Origin: Nitrospira sp. Ga0074138
GTDB taxonomy: Bacteria > Nitrospirota > Nitrospiria > Nitrospirales > Nitrospiraceae
DNA length: 64,000 nt
Assembly (NCBI GenBank): GCA_001464735.1
Contig: LNDU01000044.1
Location: forward strand, 1-64,000
Reading direction: 5' to 3'
The notes below the pieces were generated by a model, which did not search any database, was not told the DNA's origin, and was given only the letters and a program-made list of their open reading frames with translations. Position 1 is the first letter of the stretch; every line of letters begins with the position of its first letter. Shown here piece after piece: positions 13,433 through 21,698 of this stretch. The position numbers and the translations under genes were made by a program.

Positions 13433-14128
13433 TCACGTCAGCTCAAGCGTCAATTGTTCTGGTGTTTGGCCGAGGCCAGCCGGTCTGGTTGACCGGATTG
13501 ATAAGTCTAAGGCTCGCGTGAGGTAGGGCGTGGGACGATCCTCGATCAGTTGAGTGGGCGAGACGAGTTCCTGCAATGCGCCTCGACAGGATCCGCAGTG
13601 GTGGCGCTTTGGCTGGATCGTTCTTCGATGCCGTCGATAGAGTCGACCGCAGTCTTGGCATCGCCAGGCGAATTTCGCTAAGGCCATTACTTCCTTCTCC
13701 AGCGTGTGGTAGGTCGTCACGGCGACTGTCCCTGTTCGATTCATCTGCGCCATCTTCCGCAAAAAATCCAGGCCATGATCAGGCCGACGTTTCAATACAT
13801 CGAATTGCCATTGATGAATCATTTCATGGGCCAAGGTGTTGAGCAGCTCCTGTTCCGCGTAGGGTGTCCGTGCGGTGAGCTGTTCAAAGAGCGGGAGAGA
13901 AAGGCGAATTTCTCGACGACTGTGAGTCAGCGTGAGGGGGGAGAAGGCCTTTGGCCCTTCGCGGCAGGCAAACATCCCAACCGAGGAGGTCAGGCGCTGA
14001 CTCCAGACGATCTCGATTGGCCTTAGTAAACCGGCAAAGTACTGTGTGTTCAAGTGCTGCCAACGAGCCTGTAGCCATTCTGAAGAAAGGAGTACCGAAA
14101 GGCTCGGGGCGGACGAGGTTGAGCTCAT
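13433..14128 (-). CDS. SprT-like zinc metalloprotease family protein
   Basis: 231 aa with the SprT-like layout. The zinc-protease helix is HEMIHQWQ (HExxH), with a third ligand candidate in the downstream HGLDFLRKM region. A C-terminal zinc ribbon runs from WRCQDCGRLYRRHRR to HHCGSCRGAL (CxxC...CxxC). SprT/Spartan relatives cut DNA-crosslinked proteins, but the function of stand-alone bacterial members is not well defined. The ATG overlaps the preceding gene's stop by four bases, making it the last gene of the gmhA operon. Confidence 0.82.
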   Translation of the reverse strand: MSSTSSAPSLSVLLSSEWLQARWQHLNTQYFAGLLRPIEIVWSQRLTSSVGMFACREGPKAFSPLTLTHSRREIRLSLPLFEQLTARTPYAEQELLNTLAHEMIHQWQFDVLKRRPDHGLDFLRKMAQMNRTGTVAVTTYHTLEKEVMALAKFAWRCQDCGRLYRRHRRTIQPKRHHCGSCRGALQELVSPTQLIEDRPTPYLTRALDLSIRSTRPAGLGQTPEQLTLELT

Positions 14129-15114
14129 CCCAATTCCTCCAGCACGGCCGCTGCGAGCAACGGCAGCATGATCTCGTGGTGACCGGTTAAGGAATAGCCC
14201 TGGCCCCCCTTTTGCGTGGGGCGCCGCACGACGTTGGTCTGCGGTCGGTAATGGGAGAGAAAGTCCATATTCACGGTCGTAATATTGGCGATCGGATGGC
14301 CGAGGTTTCTCCCTAATGACAGTGTTTTTAGAAAGACCTCTGGCAAAATCACCGCCGAGCCGACGTTCAGGTACACGCCACCTTCCATCCCAGCGACGAC
14401 AGCAGTCAGACGCCTGAAGTCCAGGAGAGAAGTAGCGCCAATGGCTGCACCGTCCGCCGAGGGGTGCATGTGGATAATGTCGGTTCCGACCGCGACGTGC
14501 ACGGTCACCGGAAGACCGAGTTTCGCTCCTGTGGCAAGAATGCTGACAGCTCGATTCGGGAATTGATCGGCTGTTTGGTTCATGTAGCGTCCGATGGCTT
14601 CACCCAGCCCCTGACCGTCTTTCGCGCCACGCGTGATGGCGTCATTCAGAATCTGCCCCGTTTCTTCGGCCATGCCGAACCGACCATTGTCGATCTCGGC
14701 ATCGACTTCTTCGGAGGTGTGCCCCATGAAGGCCAATTCGAAGTCGTGAATAATTCCTGCCCCGTTCATGGCCACTGCCGTGATGATGCCTCGTTCCATC
14801 AAGTCCGTGATGATCGGGGACAGCCCCACCTTGATGACATGGGCGCCGATTCCGAGGATGACGGGGCGACGTCTTCGATGCGCCTTCACGATGGCCTGGG
14901 TGACGGCCCGCAATGTTGTAACCGCGAGGATGTTTGGAAGGCGGGAAGAGAAGGTTGAGAAAGTCCCTCCGCGTTTCCACGGCGCGGCCAAGTCCGAAAG
15001 CCGGACCTTGCTGTGTCGTTTTTTTAGCGGATAGGTCTTGAGGTCAGACGCGTTGATCGGAGGGATCAAGGCGGGCGGCCGAGTCAAGGGAGTCCGATCA
15101 GGACGCTTTCCCAA
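14125..15114 (-). CDS. Conserved protein between gmhA and SprT-like gene, possibly deoxyhypusine synthase-like
   Basis: 329 aa, soluble, well-conserved in appearance. Key stretches are GIGAHVIKVGLSPII, MNGAGIIHDFELAFMG, GRFGMAEETG, and EGGVYLNVGSAVILPEVF. The glycine-rich GAHVIK and NGAG blocks recall Rossmann-type NAD-binding folds, and the general pattern reminds me of deoxyhypusine-synthase-like bacterial proteins; that assignment is tentative. No eIF5A homologue would be expected in bacteria, so a deoxyhypusine role is unlikely even if the fold matches. It overlaps gmhA by 17 bases and sprT-like by four, so it is in one operon and may relate to sugar or envelope metabolism. Confidence 0.65.
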   Translation of the reverse strand: MGKRPDRTPLTRPPALIPPINASDLKTYPLKKRHSKVRLSDLAAPWKRGGTFSTFSSRLPNILAVTTLRAVTQAIVKAHRRRRPVILGIGAHVIKVGLSPIITDLMERGIITAVAMNGAGIIHDFELAFMGHTSEEVDAEIDNGRFGMAEETGQILNDAITRGAKDGQGLGEAIGRYMNQTADQFPNRAVSILATGAKLGLPVTVHVAVGTDIIHMHPSADGAAIGATSLLDFRRLTAVVAGMEGGVYLNVGSAVILPEVFLKTLSLGRNLGHPIANITTVNMDFLSHYRPQTNVVRRPTQKGGQGYSLTGHHEIMLPLLAAAVLEELG

Positions 15115-15676
15115 GGAAATGATCCTCTACCAGTTCGCACAGGACGTGGCCGAGCGTGATGTGACTTTCTTGAATCCGAGACGTGACCGTAGACGGAACG
15201 ATGAAAGGGTAATCGACCAACGCGGCCAGCTTTCCGCCGTTGGCGCCTGTCCAGGCAATCGTGGTCAAGCCACCGTCGCGGGCCGCCGCGACGCCTTTCA
15301 GCACGTTTGGAGAATTTCCGCTGGTACTGATGCCAATCGCAATGTCCCCTTTTCGGCCATGGGCGCGTACCTGGCGGGCAAAGAGTTCTTCGTACCCATA
15401 GTCATTCGCGATGCAAGTAATGGCGGCAATGTCCGTCGCCAAGGCAATTGCGGGTAAAGGCATGCGGTCGGCCTTGTACCGTCCGACGAACTCCGCCGCA
15501 ATATGGGCCGCATCGGTGGCGCTGCCACCGTTGCCGAACAGCAAGACTTTATAGCCGTCGCGAAAGGCCGCTCCGATCAGTCTTGCGACTTGGACGATCC
15601 GGTCGGCATGTTCGTACGCGAACTGCTGTTTGACTCTGGCACTGTCGGCAAACGCCGCGAGGATCGATTCTTTCAT
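15098..15676 (-). CDS. gmhA: Phosphoheptose isomerase
   Basis: Converts sedoheptulose 7-phosphate to D-glycero-heptose 7-phosphate, the first step to LPS core heptose. 192 aa, a single SIS domain: LFGNGGSATDAAHIAAEFVGRY is the substrate/zinc loop and ISTSGNSPNVLKG the phosphosugar-binding serine loop; a late histidine block (SHITLGHVLCELVE) completes the active site. It is first in a three-gene operon with the unknown 14125-15114 gene and the SprT-like gene. Confidence 0.94.
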   Translation of the reverse strand: MKESILAAFADSARVKQQFAYEHADRIVQVARLIGAAFRDGYKVLLFGNGGSATDAAHIAAEFVGRYKADRMPLPAIALATDIAAITCIANDYGYEELFARQVRAHGRKGDIAIGISTSGNSPNVLKGVAAARDGGLTTIAWTGANGGKLAALVDYPFIVPSTVTSRIQESHITLGHVLCELVEDHFLGKAS

Positions 15677-17290: not shown

Positions 17291-18547
17291 ATGGCACAAG
17301 ATCAACCGATCAAAGCGCTGGTGATTGCACTGACGGAAGATGCCGAGGGTGCCGTCTATTCGATCAATCGGCTCAAGCCAGACGCGCTCTGTTTTGTGCT
17401 CCCGGAAGCGGGTAAAGCGATAGTGGAGTCGGTTGTGCAGCCCAAGATCGAACGGATGCCTCGGCGATGGGACTGGATTGTGGTCGCGGAGACCGGGGAA
17501 TTTGCCGGCTGCTATCAGACACTCGCCCGGTCGCTACCGGATTTGTTGCGGACCTGGGAAGTACAGCCGGGTGAGCTGGTCGTGGATCTGAGTGGAGCCA
17601 CCCCGGCGATGGCGAGTGCGCTCACCTTGGTGGCGCTCCCATGGACTTCTCGGGTGGTCGAGCTGGCTCGGGCGAGCGACGGTCAGGAGGGCGATCGTAT
17701 CGAGTTGGGCACAAAGACGGTTGTCTGGACCCAGAGTAATCCATGGGACGAGCAATCGACCGTGTCACGTCGGGAAGGGTGCGAATTATTTAACCGGGGT
17801 CTCTTTCACGCCGCCGCCAAACTCTTCCATGGCGTAGAACTGCGAGTGAGTGGCGGGCAAAAGCCGCTCTATCGTGCCTTCACCGATTTGGCCGAGGGCT
17901 ACGAGTTATGGGAACGGTTTCATTACCGGCAAGCTTGGGACAAGTTGAGAACTGCGACAAAGGCTCTGGAGATGGCTTCGCTGTGGGGCGGGCCGACTGG
18001 ATTGAAAGCGATCCTGCCTGCCCTGAAGGCCAACGCGAGTTTCCTCGAGAAGCTGGTGTTGGACCCTGCCGAGGTCAAAGAATACCTTGCGCTGGATCTG
18101 TTGGCGTATGTCAGTAGGCATCTCCATGTCGGCCATGATCCCGAAGGGGCTATGACAGCGCTTGTTCGTGCGCTGGAGGCGTTCGCGCAAGTCCGGCTCT
18201 ATAAGTCGCACAAGATCAAGAGTTGGGATGTGTCGCCGGGACAGCTTCCGCAAGCGCTTCAAGAGACCTGCCGGACCTGTTACCTCGAAGATATCGACGG
18301 CAAGTACAAGCTGCCGTTGCAGGCTCAGTTTCGCGTGTTGGCCGGATTGGGCGACCAATTAGGCCAGGCCTTTCTCCGCGAGTGGCCCATGATGAAGCCG
18401 CTGCTCGATGCCGCCAACCATGCGGTGCTCGGCCATGGCTTCGAGCCGATCAAAGCGGAGCGAGTGCAGCAGCTGTATGATGTCGTTGTCCGACTCACCG
18501 ATGTCGCCGAGTCGTCGCTGCCGAAGTTTCCTGTCTTGAACCTATGA
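17291..18547 (+). CDS. Orphan CARF-domain protein, TIGR02710/Cas02710-like, HEPN motif degenerate
   Basis: 418 aa resembling the TIGR02710 CRISPR-associated family. The N-terminal Rossmann-like CARF domain contains DLSGATPAMASAL (residues ~98-110), the usual D-x-T/S-G-x-T-x-x-M ligand-binding motif for cyclic oligoadenylate. The C-terminal ~200 residues are helical, as in HEPN ribonucleases. Where that family normally has Arg-Asn-x4-His followed by Gly-Phe, this protein reads ANHAVLGHGFEP (residues ~374-385), so the catalytic arginine seems to be alanine. No cas genes or CRISPR array are in the window. Its role may be sensing without RNA cleavage, or a non-CRISPR signal. YbgC and protoglobin follow on the same strand. 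Confidence 0.72.
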   Translation: MAQDQPIKALVIALTEDAEGAVYSINRLKPDALCFVLPEAGKAIVESVVQPKIERMPRRWDWIVVAETGEFAGCYQTLARSLPDLLRTWEVQPGELVVDLSGATPAMASALTLVALPWTSRVVELARASDGQEGDRIELGTKTVVWTQSNPWDEQSTVSRREGCELFNRGLFHAAAKLFHGVELRVSGGQKPLYRAFTDLAEGYELWERFHYRQAWDKLRTATKALEMASLWGGPTGLKAILPALKANASFLEKLVLDPAEVKEYLALDLLAYVSRHLHVGHDPEGAMTALVRALEAFAQVRLYKSHKIKSWDVSPGQLPQALQETCRTCYLEDIDGKYKLPLQAQFRVLAGLGDQLGQAFLREWPMMKPLLDAANHAVLGHGFEPIKAERVQQLYDVVVRLTDVAESSLPKFPVLNL

Positions 18548-18608
18548 GCTTTCAGTGGCTCGTTGTCAAACATTAGATCTAAGGCCGACTGCTGGGAGCT
18601 GGTCGCTC

Positions 18609-19022
18609 ATGGACATTCGCGTCTACTACGAAGATACCGACTGCGGCGGGGTCGTGTACTACGCCAACTATCTCAAATATTTTGAGCGGGCGCGGACCCA
18701 CTATCTCGAAGATCGAGGGTTATCGGTGGTAGGGCTTATGGTTGAAGGAACGGTGTTTGTCGTCGTGCATGCGGAGGTGCATTATCGGTCGCCTGCCCGC
18801 TATGGTGAGACGTTGGTGATTGAGACGGTCGTTCCCGAGATGACGGCTGCGTCGATCACTTTTGCCCACGTGGTCAAGGACAAAGTCAGTGGGCGTGTCG
18901 TGGCCGAAGGGTCGGCCAGACTGGCGGCGACGGACGGCAATGGCAAGGTGAAGCGCCTGGACAAGGTCACTGTCGCTGCGATACAGTCTGAGGGACATTC
19001 TGCCGAGAGACGTCATGCGTAA
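18609..19022 (+). CDS. ybgC: Acyl-CoA thioesterase, YbgC/4-hydroxybenzoyl-CoA type
   Basis: 137 aa hot-dog-fold thioesterase. The signature is VYYEDTDCGGVVYYANYLKYFERAR, with the catalytic aspartate in DTD. The position usually held by histidine (VYHANYL) is tyrosine here (VYYANYL). The rest of the fold (HYRSPARYGETLVIET) is normal. The ATG at 18609 was chosen because the family N-terminus begins there. It starts 61 bases after the CARF gene. YbgC proteins often associate with Tol-Pal or lipid metabolism, but no tol genes are nearby. Confidence 0.88.
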   Translation: MDIRVYYEDTDCGGVVYYANYLKYFERARTHYLEDRGLSVVGLMVEGTVFVVVHAEVHYRSPARYGETLVIETVVPEMTAASITFAHVVKDKVSGRVVAEGSARLAATDGNGKVKRLDKVTVAAIQSEGHSAERRHA

Positions 19023-20033: not shown

Positions 20034-21695
20034 TCAGCGATGGGTTACTGTTTGAGTCGAGAAGCCCTGGAGTTTCTTACCGATCTGCGCCTTCGTGTCA
20101 CCCACAGTGCCACCTGACTCTGACCACTGCGTAATCACGATTTCTATTCGACGGTTCTTACTCCGGTTTTTTTCCGTGTCATTGGCCGCGATCGGTTTGC
20201 TATCGGCGTACCCCATGGCTTTGACTCGGTCGGCCTCAAGCCCTCCGTTGATCAATATTTGAATGGCACGTTCAGCCCTGGTCCGGGAGAGTTCGATATT
20301 ATCCCGAAAGCCCTTCCGAGGATCGCTCCGGAGCGGCGCGTTGTCGGTATGGCCGGCAACCTCGATGTTCTGGTAACGGAATCCGTGCAAGACGGCTCCG
20401 ATCCGCTCGAGCAATGAGGTGCCTCCGAGGGTAACCGCAGCCTCACCGGTGGGGAACAATTCAGCGGCTGCAAACGCGAGGGTCAATTTATTGCCTCGCT
20501 GCCTCAACGTCGCACTGCCCTTCTTGAGTTCGGGCTGTAAGAGGCTCGCGAGACTCTCGCTCATCTTACCGAGGTCGCTACTTGATGAGGATTCTGTGTC
20601 ATCTGCAAGCGCGGGGGGAGATGGGAGGAGGTTAGTCACGGCTAGGTTCTGATCGAGTGATTGCAGCGGAATCGTGCTTTTGTCGGCACCGCTGTCTTCT
20701 TGGGCAGCAGCTGGCTCGGCTTGCTTGGACGTATTGCGTTCGAGGTCTGTCAGCAATTGCTTCGTACGTGCGAGTTCCATGTCTCTTGCCATGAGTTGAG
20801 GATTCAGATCCGCCAGCTTTTGCGTGACTTGTTTGAGGTCGTCCTTGACCTGCGCCAGCTCTTGCTCCTTCCTTACTATCTGTTGTTCGGCCTCGGCAAC
20901 ACGGCGTTTGGCCTGCGCCAGGTCTTGTTCTTTCCCTGATGCCGTCAGTTGTTCTGCTTCGGCTGGGCGGCGTCTGGCCTGTGCCAGTTCTTGCTCTTTT
21001 CGCGCCGTCTGCTGTTCGGCTTCGGCAAAGCGACGTTTGGCCTGCGCCAGCTCTTGCTCCTTCCCCACCATCTGTTGTTCGATTTCGGCGATACGGCGTC
21101 TGGTCTGTGTCAGGTCCTGCTCTTTCCCCGCCATCTGCTGTTCGGCGTCGGCGATACGACGTTTGGCCTGCGCCAGCTCTTGCTCCTTCCCCACCATCTG
21201 TTGTTCGATTTCGGCGACACGACGTTTAGCCTGCACCAGTTCCTGGTCTTTTTTAGCTGTCTGTTGTTCGGCGTCGGCTGCGCGGCGTTTGGCCTGCGTC
21301 AATTCTTGCCCTTTCCCCGTCGTCAGCTGTTGTTCAACCTCGACGACGCGGCGTTTGGCCTGGTTGAGCTCCTCAGCTTGTGACGCAAGATCCTCTCGAA
21401 GCTTCTTGGAATTCTCGTAGACATTGGATCGCAGGGCTGTGATCTCACTATCTTTGGCATGGAGTTGGATAACCAACTCACCGATCCGCCGTTTTGCATT
21501 CTCCAGATTGCCGGCGGCGAGTTGTCGCTCGAGTTCATCGATTCTTTGTTTGGCCTGCTGGAGATGGTTTCTCGTTACGCTCAATTCGTCGTGTGGCGAC
21601 TGGCCGTCTGCATCTCCGACAGCCATAGAAACCGGCACAACTCCGCATAACATGGTGAGGGATATAAGCGTGAAGGCGGATAATTTTTCGATCAT
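20034..21695 (-). CDS. OmpA-family protein with long 21-residue-repeat coiled coil
   Basis: About 553 aa. A signal peptide (LSAFTLISLTMLCGVVPVSMA) is followed by a long coiled coil, then a disordered acidic linker, then a C-terminal OmpA-like peptidoglycan-binding domain (VAGHTDNAPLRSDPRKGFRDN ... LSRTRAERAIQILI ... AMGYADSKPIAAN ... NRRIEIVI). The coiled coil is built of about eight near-identical 21-residue units of the form QELAQAKRRxAEAEQQ-x3-KE, three heptads each. It resembles periplasmic spacers that tie the envelope to the cell wall. Two ATGs in a row (21698 and 21695) make the exact start ambiguous. Confidence 0.87.
   Translation of the reverse strand: MIEKLSAFTLISLTMLCGVVPVSMAVGDADGQSPHDELSVTRNHLQQAKQRIDELERQLAAGNLENAKRRIGELVIQLHAKDSEITALRSNVYENSKKLREDLASQAEELNQAKRRVVEVEQQLTTGKGQELTQAKRRAADAEQQTAKKDQELVQAKRRVAEIEQQMVGKEQELAQAKRRIADAEQQMAGKEQDLTQTRRRIAEIEQQMVGKEQELAQAKRRFAEAEQQTARKEQELAQARRRPAEAEQLTASGKEQDLAQAKRRVAEAEQQIVRKEQELAQVKDDLKQVTQKLADLNPQLMARDMELARTKQLLTDLERNTSKQAEPAAAQEDSGADKSTIPLQSLDQNLAVTNLLPSPPALADDTESSSSSDLGKMSESLASLLQPELKKGSATLRQRGNKLTLAFAAAELFPTGEAAVTLGGTSLLERIGAVLHGFRYQNIEVAGHTDNAPLRSDPRKGFRDNIELSRTRAERAIQILINGGLEADRVKAMGYADSKPIAANDTEKNRSKNRRIEIVITQWSESGGTVGDTKAQIGKKLQGFSTQTVTHR
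20848..21374 (-). repeat. 63-bp tandem repeat inside OmpA-like gene
   Basis: About eight units of 63 bases (21 codons) encode QELAQAKRR-type heptads. Some units differ only at the residue after KRR and at the three residues before KE. One unit carries an extra codon (EQLTASGKE). High sequence identity between units makes copy-number change by slippage or recombination likely. Confidence 0.85.
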
Positions 21696-21698
21696 CAT

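Follow-up and report, generated by a model that had tools for sequence, protein, structure and literature searches.

INTRODUCTION

The presence of a CARF-HEPN protein is taken as a marker of cyclic-oligoadenylate (cOA)-based defense. TTHB144, a Cas02710/TIGR02710 protein of T. thermophilus, is a cA4-activated RNase that depends upon K94 and H368 (PMC6599890), and its K94A mutant has lost both detectable cA4 binding and activation of the RNase (PMC6599890). Csm6 of the same organism (TtCsm6; TTHB152; PDB 5FSH/8JH1) loses almost all RNase activity upon alanine substitution of R415, N416, H422 or E332 (PMC4748810), a result repeated for the R415, N416 and H422 mutants (PMC10897365), and loses cA4 binding completely with the K137A mutation (PMC10897365). 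A 2013 survey of HEPN proteins entered Cas_Cas02710 as conserving the Rx4-6H motif, and described HEPN families in which this motif is not intact, namely HEPN-M SAV_6107, the aminoglycoside-NT C-terminal family and part of MtlR (PMC3710099). These families, like the protein described here, have a HEPN fold without the motif, but their architectures are unrelated and lack a CARF domain.

Here we examine a chromosomal gene of Nitrospira sp. Ga0074138 (contig LNDU01000044.1), which lies in a 64-kb stretch of DNA that we analyzed as a whole and refer to as the window. The protein resembles TTHB144 in its CARF-6H-HEPN order, in homology over the full length, and in D99, H382 and the scaffold residues. 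Unlike TTHB144, it has Pro in place of K94 and Ala in place of the HEPN Arg, and it is a lineage gene of the chromosome without a type III system, whereas TTHB144 adjoins cas1, cas2 and cas10.

RESULTS

The gene encodes a CARF-6H-HEPN protein of the TIGR02710 family

The open reading frame begins with the ATG at 17291 and its stop codon ends at 18547. These coordinates, as well as its two diagnostic motifs, are as given in a first-pass annotation made from the sequence alone. The features of the gene are:

17291..18547, + strand: degenerate Csm6-like CARF-6H-HEPN protein of the TIGR02710/Cas02710 family, 418 amino acids (profiles and fold)
17291..17743, + strand: CARF domain, Rossmann-like b-a-b, with degenerate pocket motifs, residues 1-151 (secondary structure of the AlphaFold2 model)
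17330..17347, + strand: strand-1 loop LTEDAE, residues 14-19, replacing canonical VGGS/VGTT, acidic at columns 16/17
17585..17611, + strand: DLSGATPAM, residues 99-107, replacing D-x-TGGTK-x-M, with P105 at the cA4-binding Lys
17768..18046, + strand: Csm6 6H helical domain, residues 160-252 (PF22205, 46.9 bits; cut-off 27.6)
18083..18502, + strand: HEPN domain, residues 265-404 (PF09670, Cas_Cas02710 HEPN, 62.7 bits; cut-off 27)
18413..18436, + strand: putatively dead HEPN motif ANHAVLGH, residues 375-382, with Ala for the catalytic Arg, and Asn and His retained

Membership in the TIGR02710/Cas02710 CARF-HEPN family, which had been proposed in the first-pass annotation, was borne out by both profiles and fold. 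The TIGR02710 match scored 117.9 bits (cut-off 83.9) and spanned positions 2-382 of the 384 in the model, PF22205 and PF09670 were likewise above their cut-offs (PF09670 reached 65.3 bits in the genome search), and the PADLOC profile CARF1--CARF_HEPN PDLC01812 matched all 418 of 418 residues with 832 bits. Queried alone against PDB chains, the sequence gave no real match. Comparison of structures was informative: among solved structures, TtCsm6 was the closest to an AlphaFold2 model built from 55 orthologs (pLDDT 86.8, pTM 0.69), matching it along the entire chain (Foldseek E 1.8e-14; VIA-align Z 21.5, rmsd 7.0 over 379 residues, 20% identity). Residues 5-151 align with known CARF domains (VIA-align Z 10-15). 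The protein thus shares the whole-chain fold of TtCsm6, but differs from it at the positions of R415, K137 and Y328, which are A375, P105 and V292.

The CARF pocket lacks the residues required for cA4 binding in homologs

We counted residues in 107 non-redundant Nitrospirales orthologs and in 24 canonical homologs, the latter including paralogs within Nitrospirales genomes. Residue 105 aligns with both K94 of TTHB144 and K137 of TtCsm6. Lys occupies this column in 23 of the 24 canonical homologs, compared to none of the 107 orthologs, which have Pro, Ala, Ser, Val or Thr instead. The GG(S/T) of the strand-1 loop is also replaced, such that Asp or Glu is found at column 16 or 17, the positions of TTHB144 T10/T11, in 104 of 107 orthologs (2/24 in the canonical set); G15 persists in 5/107 orthologs and G103 in 0/107 (Ala, Thr or Ser in all). 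The first-pass annotation had held that the protein kept its sensor, which these counts contradict: the orthologs have neither the pocket of Csm6/Csx1 RNases (GG(S/T) plus TGGTK with the cOA-binding Lys) nor the T/S pair and Lys with which CARF ring nucleases cleave cOA.

If the pocket has not simply been abandoned, the CARF domain could sense a ligand other than cOA and drive a HEPN output that binds RNA or protein without cleaving it. The CARF fold is kept; D99, T/S101, T104 and M107 are mostly conserved among the orthologs; residues that are new across the lineage (W60, D61, W62, W232, W312 and Q394) include invariant Trp residues that could build a new site; and there is precedent in RtcR and Rv2818, CARF families without the strand-4 basic residue (Lys/Arg) that are proposed to bind distinct ligands (PMC4012209). 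Nevertheless, we consider such a ligand possible but rather unlikely, based on the loop facing the old pocket, which is acidic and variable among the orthologs, and on the variability of column 105, since one would expect greater uniformity in a new site.

The catalytic Arg of the HEPN domain is replaced in every ortholog

R415, N416, H422 and E332 of TtCsm6 align with A375, N376, H382 and E296 of the window protein. The column of the HEPN Arg contains Ala in 103 orthologs, Ser in 2, Val in 1 and Thr in 1, but Arg in none of the 107, compared to Arg in 24/24 canonical homologs; the Ala reported by the first-pass annotation at this place is therefore real. Lys105 and Arg375 are both absent from every ortholog, whereas G15, K105 and R375 are present together in 22 of the 24 canonical homologs. 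Moreover, no other Arg-x4-6-His pair that might substitute is conserved (R276-x5-H282 occurs in 56/107 orthologs and R302-x4-H307 in 46/107), so that the R-x4-6-H motif typical of Csm6/Csx1 cOA-activated HEPN RNases is missing.

Losses extend to neighboring core residues. D286, R290 and Y292, which vary little or not at all among the canonical homologs, are lost in the orthologs, and N273, which is similarly constrained in those homologs, is retained in only 3 of 107. On the other hand, D269, R276, R293, E296, Q300, W207 and G383 are retained. To judge from the alignment, the active centers are lost and the scaffold is kept. Thus, of the earlier claim that the nuclease was lost, the loss of the Arg is confirmed, and the loss of RNase activity is strongly suggested by the sequence.

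We considered that the RNase might still be active, with some other basic residue replacing the HEPN Arg, a possibility raised earlier for the Parep1/8 HEPN family, in which the R is absent and the H is kept (PMC3710099). His382, Asn376 and Glu296 are mostly retained across the orthologs, and R276 and R293 are invariant. However, R276 and R293 are conserved in the active family too and so do not count as replacements, 10 of the orthologs have lost H382, R290, D286 and Y292 are gone, and R415A alone abolishes the RNase of TtCsm6 (PMC4748810; PMC10897365). We therefore regard an active RNase as improbable, although residual or altered activity at the HEPN site is conceivable.

Most carriers of the gene lack a clear Cas10

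The gene is an orphan, as the first-pass annotation had described it: we found no Cas10, Cas1 or RAMP match in its own genome (94.7% complete), and neither CRISPR-like direct repeats nor Rfam matches within the window. Across genomes, a clear Cas10 was present in 6 of 82 ortholog carriers, compared to 4 of 5 carriers of an intact-motif homolog from the Nitrospirota family f20 (Fisher p 0.0004, with relatedness ignored); weak Cas10-palm matches in four genomes (G057, G079, G001 and G091; 21-30 bits) were left out of the count. The association with type III CRISPR that characterizes Csm6/Csx1 RNases is thus lacking. Canonical CARF-HEPN paralogs occur mostly in those Nitrospirales genomes that do bear Cas10, for instance adjoining cas1 in G095, so the core copy is no substitute for the effector.

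The genome without a Cas10 match does carry a CBASS cyclase, on another contig (C40). The CBASS operon (L203:3042-7407) consists of a TRIP13-like ATPase, two small ORFs, a CD-NTase and a SAVED-PDDEXK effector (PADLOC, 484.6 bits for the cyclase and 677 bits for the effector). We rejected CBASS as the source of a signal, as the operon looks complete with an effector of its own, and SMODS cyclases are sporadic (16/98 Nitrospirales relatives) and cannot account for a near-universal gene.

These observations bear on an earlier idea, that the protein is a cOA-binding regulator or a sponge that damps type III CRISPR signaling. CARF domains do bind cOA and several CARF proteins are ring nucleases (TTHB144; PMC6599890), but all 107 orthologs have lost the Lys on which cA4 binding depends and 104 have an acidic rim loop, no clear Cas10 was seen in 76 of the 82 carriers, Cas10-bearing Nitrospirales often carry a separate canonical CARF-HEPN, and the sole cyclase found in the gene's own genome belongs to CBASS. 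We therefore regard a cyclic-nucleotide sponge, or a regulator of type III immunity, as very unlikely. The alternative in the first-pass annotation, a role outside CRISPR, is probably correct.

The orthologs form a single clade under purifying selection

Matches to the protein were found in 83 of 98 Nitrospirales genomes and orthologs in 82; G039 has only a canonical paralog. In a survey of the phylum, all Nitrospira and almost all other Nitrospiraceae among the genomes listed have the ortholog, as opposed to 0 of 15 listed genomes from the other families of the class. The gene is absent from some fairly complete genomes, such as G218 and all four g4 genomes, so it cannot be strictly indispensable to every member of the order. 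No relative was found in the phages and viral contigs searched, and plasmid matches were only to distant canonical TIGR02710 proteins (22-27% identity).

In a tree computed without the motif columns, all sampled Nitrospirales sequences form one clade (100/100), whose sister is the intact-motif f20 group (97/95), and the losses require a single change of state. Thus, there was one old loss. The f20 proteins (L169-L172; 37-39% identity) are, like the window protein, orphan CARF-HEPN proteins in a chromosomal housekeeping context, but unlike it they retain GGSPEP, TGGTKPM and RN-x4-H with small variations. With gene names read from sequence, rho-prfA-murA adjoins the f20 gene in L169, L170 and L171, and in the first two of these NAD kinase flanks it on the other side; these three are likely active RNases outside any CRISPR locus. 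Since the intact sister is also found in housekeeping synteny, the whole branch may go back to a CARF-HEPN protein that already had a chromosomal role outside CRISPR loci.

dN/dS among Nitrospira orthologs is 0.06-0.14, well below 1, indicating that the gene is maintained by purifying selection, in keeping with its near-universal presence. One might suppose that a protein that has lost both active centers is a decaying relic without function, and a few draft genomes (G033, G034 and G056) do have fragments or frame breaks of the gene. We give this almost no credence, given the low dN/dS, dozens of columns that are invariant over the order, and full-length ORFs in about 100 genomes.

Neighborhood of the gene

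We scored neighboring genes in relatives, using these features of the window as markers:

18555..19022, + strand: YbgC/FadM-type 4HBT acyl-CoA thioesterase, ORF from GTG at 18555, homologous core from ATG at 18609
15098..15676, - strand: SIS-domain (GmhA-like) gene, divergent; used to mark synteny, with no functional part ascribed to it
14125..15114, - strand: deoxyhypusine-synthase-like gene, divergent; used to mark synteny, with no functional part ascribed to it

Both neighbors named by the first-pass annotation, a thioesterase and a protoglobin, are present in the window, but only the former is widespread. The thioesterase is the commonest downstream neighbor on the same strand (60/66 in the genus group, 18/26 elsewhere in the order). 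Of 88 matches scored, 69 have it no more than 300 bp away, although a few loci may be counted twice. In contrast, the protoglobin neighbors the gene in 20/56 loci of the genus group and 0/23 of the remaining Nitrospirales, and like NfeD and stomatin is limited to the genus group among the loci scored. The divergent SIS gene is beside the CARF-HEPN gene in 50/56 loci of the genus group and 16/25 outside it, and the deoxyhypusine-synthase-like gene is nearby in 48/56 and 14/23. Because general synteny is also conserved here, a functional link to the thioesterase is only a guess, useful as a lead.

Several features of these loci were noted in passing. The deoxyhypusine-synthase-like protein, here in a bacterium, matches the Pfam DS profile with 21.2 bits, which is under the cut-off, and its gene is beside SIS through much of the order. 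A small ORF lies directly downstream of the CARF gene at L083:11281-11670 and 12 other loci, in several cases between the CARF gene and the thioesterase, and its product, we presume, resembles the four-helix-bundle family of 23S-rRNA intervening sequences. In G056, the full CARF-HEPN gene is followed after about 1.2 kb by a second, partial copy (L141:8505-8753), which covers residues 333-418 with 73% identity. Finally, a 36-nt repeat occurs eight times, at a spacing of about 63 nt (20880-21362), within a window gene for an OmpA-type protein (20034-21698, - strand), where it encodes a repetitive, probably coiled-coil region.

DISCUSSION

We favor the interpretation that the window gene encodes an exapted Csm6-type effector that is now a non-catalytic, cOA-blind binding protein, to which we assign a probability of roughly 0.6. 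We are considerably more confident of its core, that the protein is exapted, cOA-blind and RNase-dead, which is very probable; that it acts as a plain scaffold we favor only somewhat. Based on the mutants of TtCsm6 and TTHB144, the substitutions would be expected to abolish both cOA binding and RNase activity. By analogy to Csm6, the protein probably forms a dimer, and we infer that binding is its mode of action. The residues that are new across the lineage, W60, D61, W62, W232, W312 and Q394, are in keeping with this interpretation as well.

In the proposed course of events, an ancestral orphan CARF-HEPN RNase would have left the cyclic-oligoadenylate pathway. On the Nitrospirales stem, the cOA-binding residues of the CARF pocket, the HEPN Arg and neighboring core residues would have been lost, with the scaffold of the fold kept. 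Thereafter the gene would have been inherited vertically as a near-universal chromosomal gene under purifying selection, and at present its product most likely binds a protein or RNA partner without catalysis or cOA, probably as a dimer. We consider it an even bet that the Nitrospirales turned a Csm6-type alarm effector into a housekeeping protein in this manner, with pocket and RNase center removed in one old event.

The sequence cluster itself is already known, since PADLOC catalogs it (PDLC01812) as a defense-type CARF-HEPN and NCBIfam would name the gene CRISPR-associated, but we found no mention there of the double loss. In the literature text searched, we found no report of an inactivated or pseudoenzyme CARF-HEPN protein, nor of the double loss in a Nitrospira Csm6, although the 2020 CARF classification may contain a prior remark. 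The PADLOC and NCBIfam labels, which would mark nearly every Nitrospira genome as carrying a defense or CRISPR-associated gene, are probably wrong for this protein.

If our interpretation is correct, the gene would be a clear case of exaptation of a CRISPR effector, one that can be placed on a tree and in which sensor and nuclease have both been dismantled, and it would provide a natural experiment on a CARF-HEPN dimer without catalysis in ecologically important nitrifiers. These results suggest that a phage-defense protein was recruited for another job in the Nitrospirales, the order that includes the nitrite oxidizer Nitrospira.
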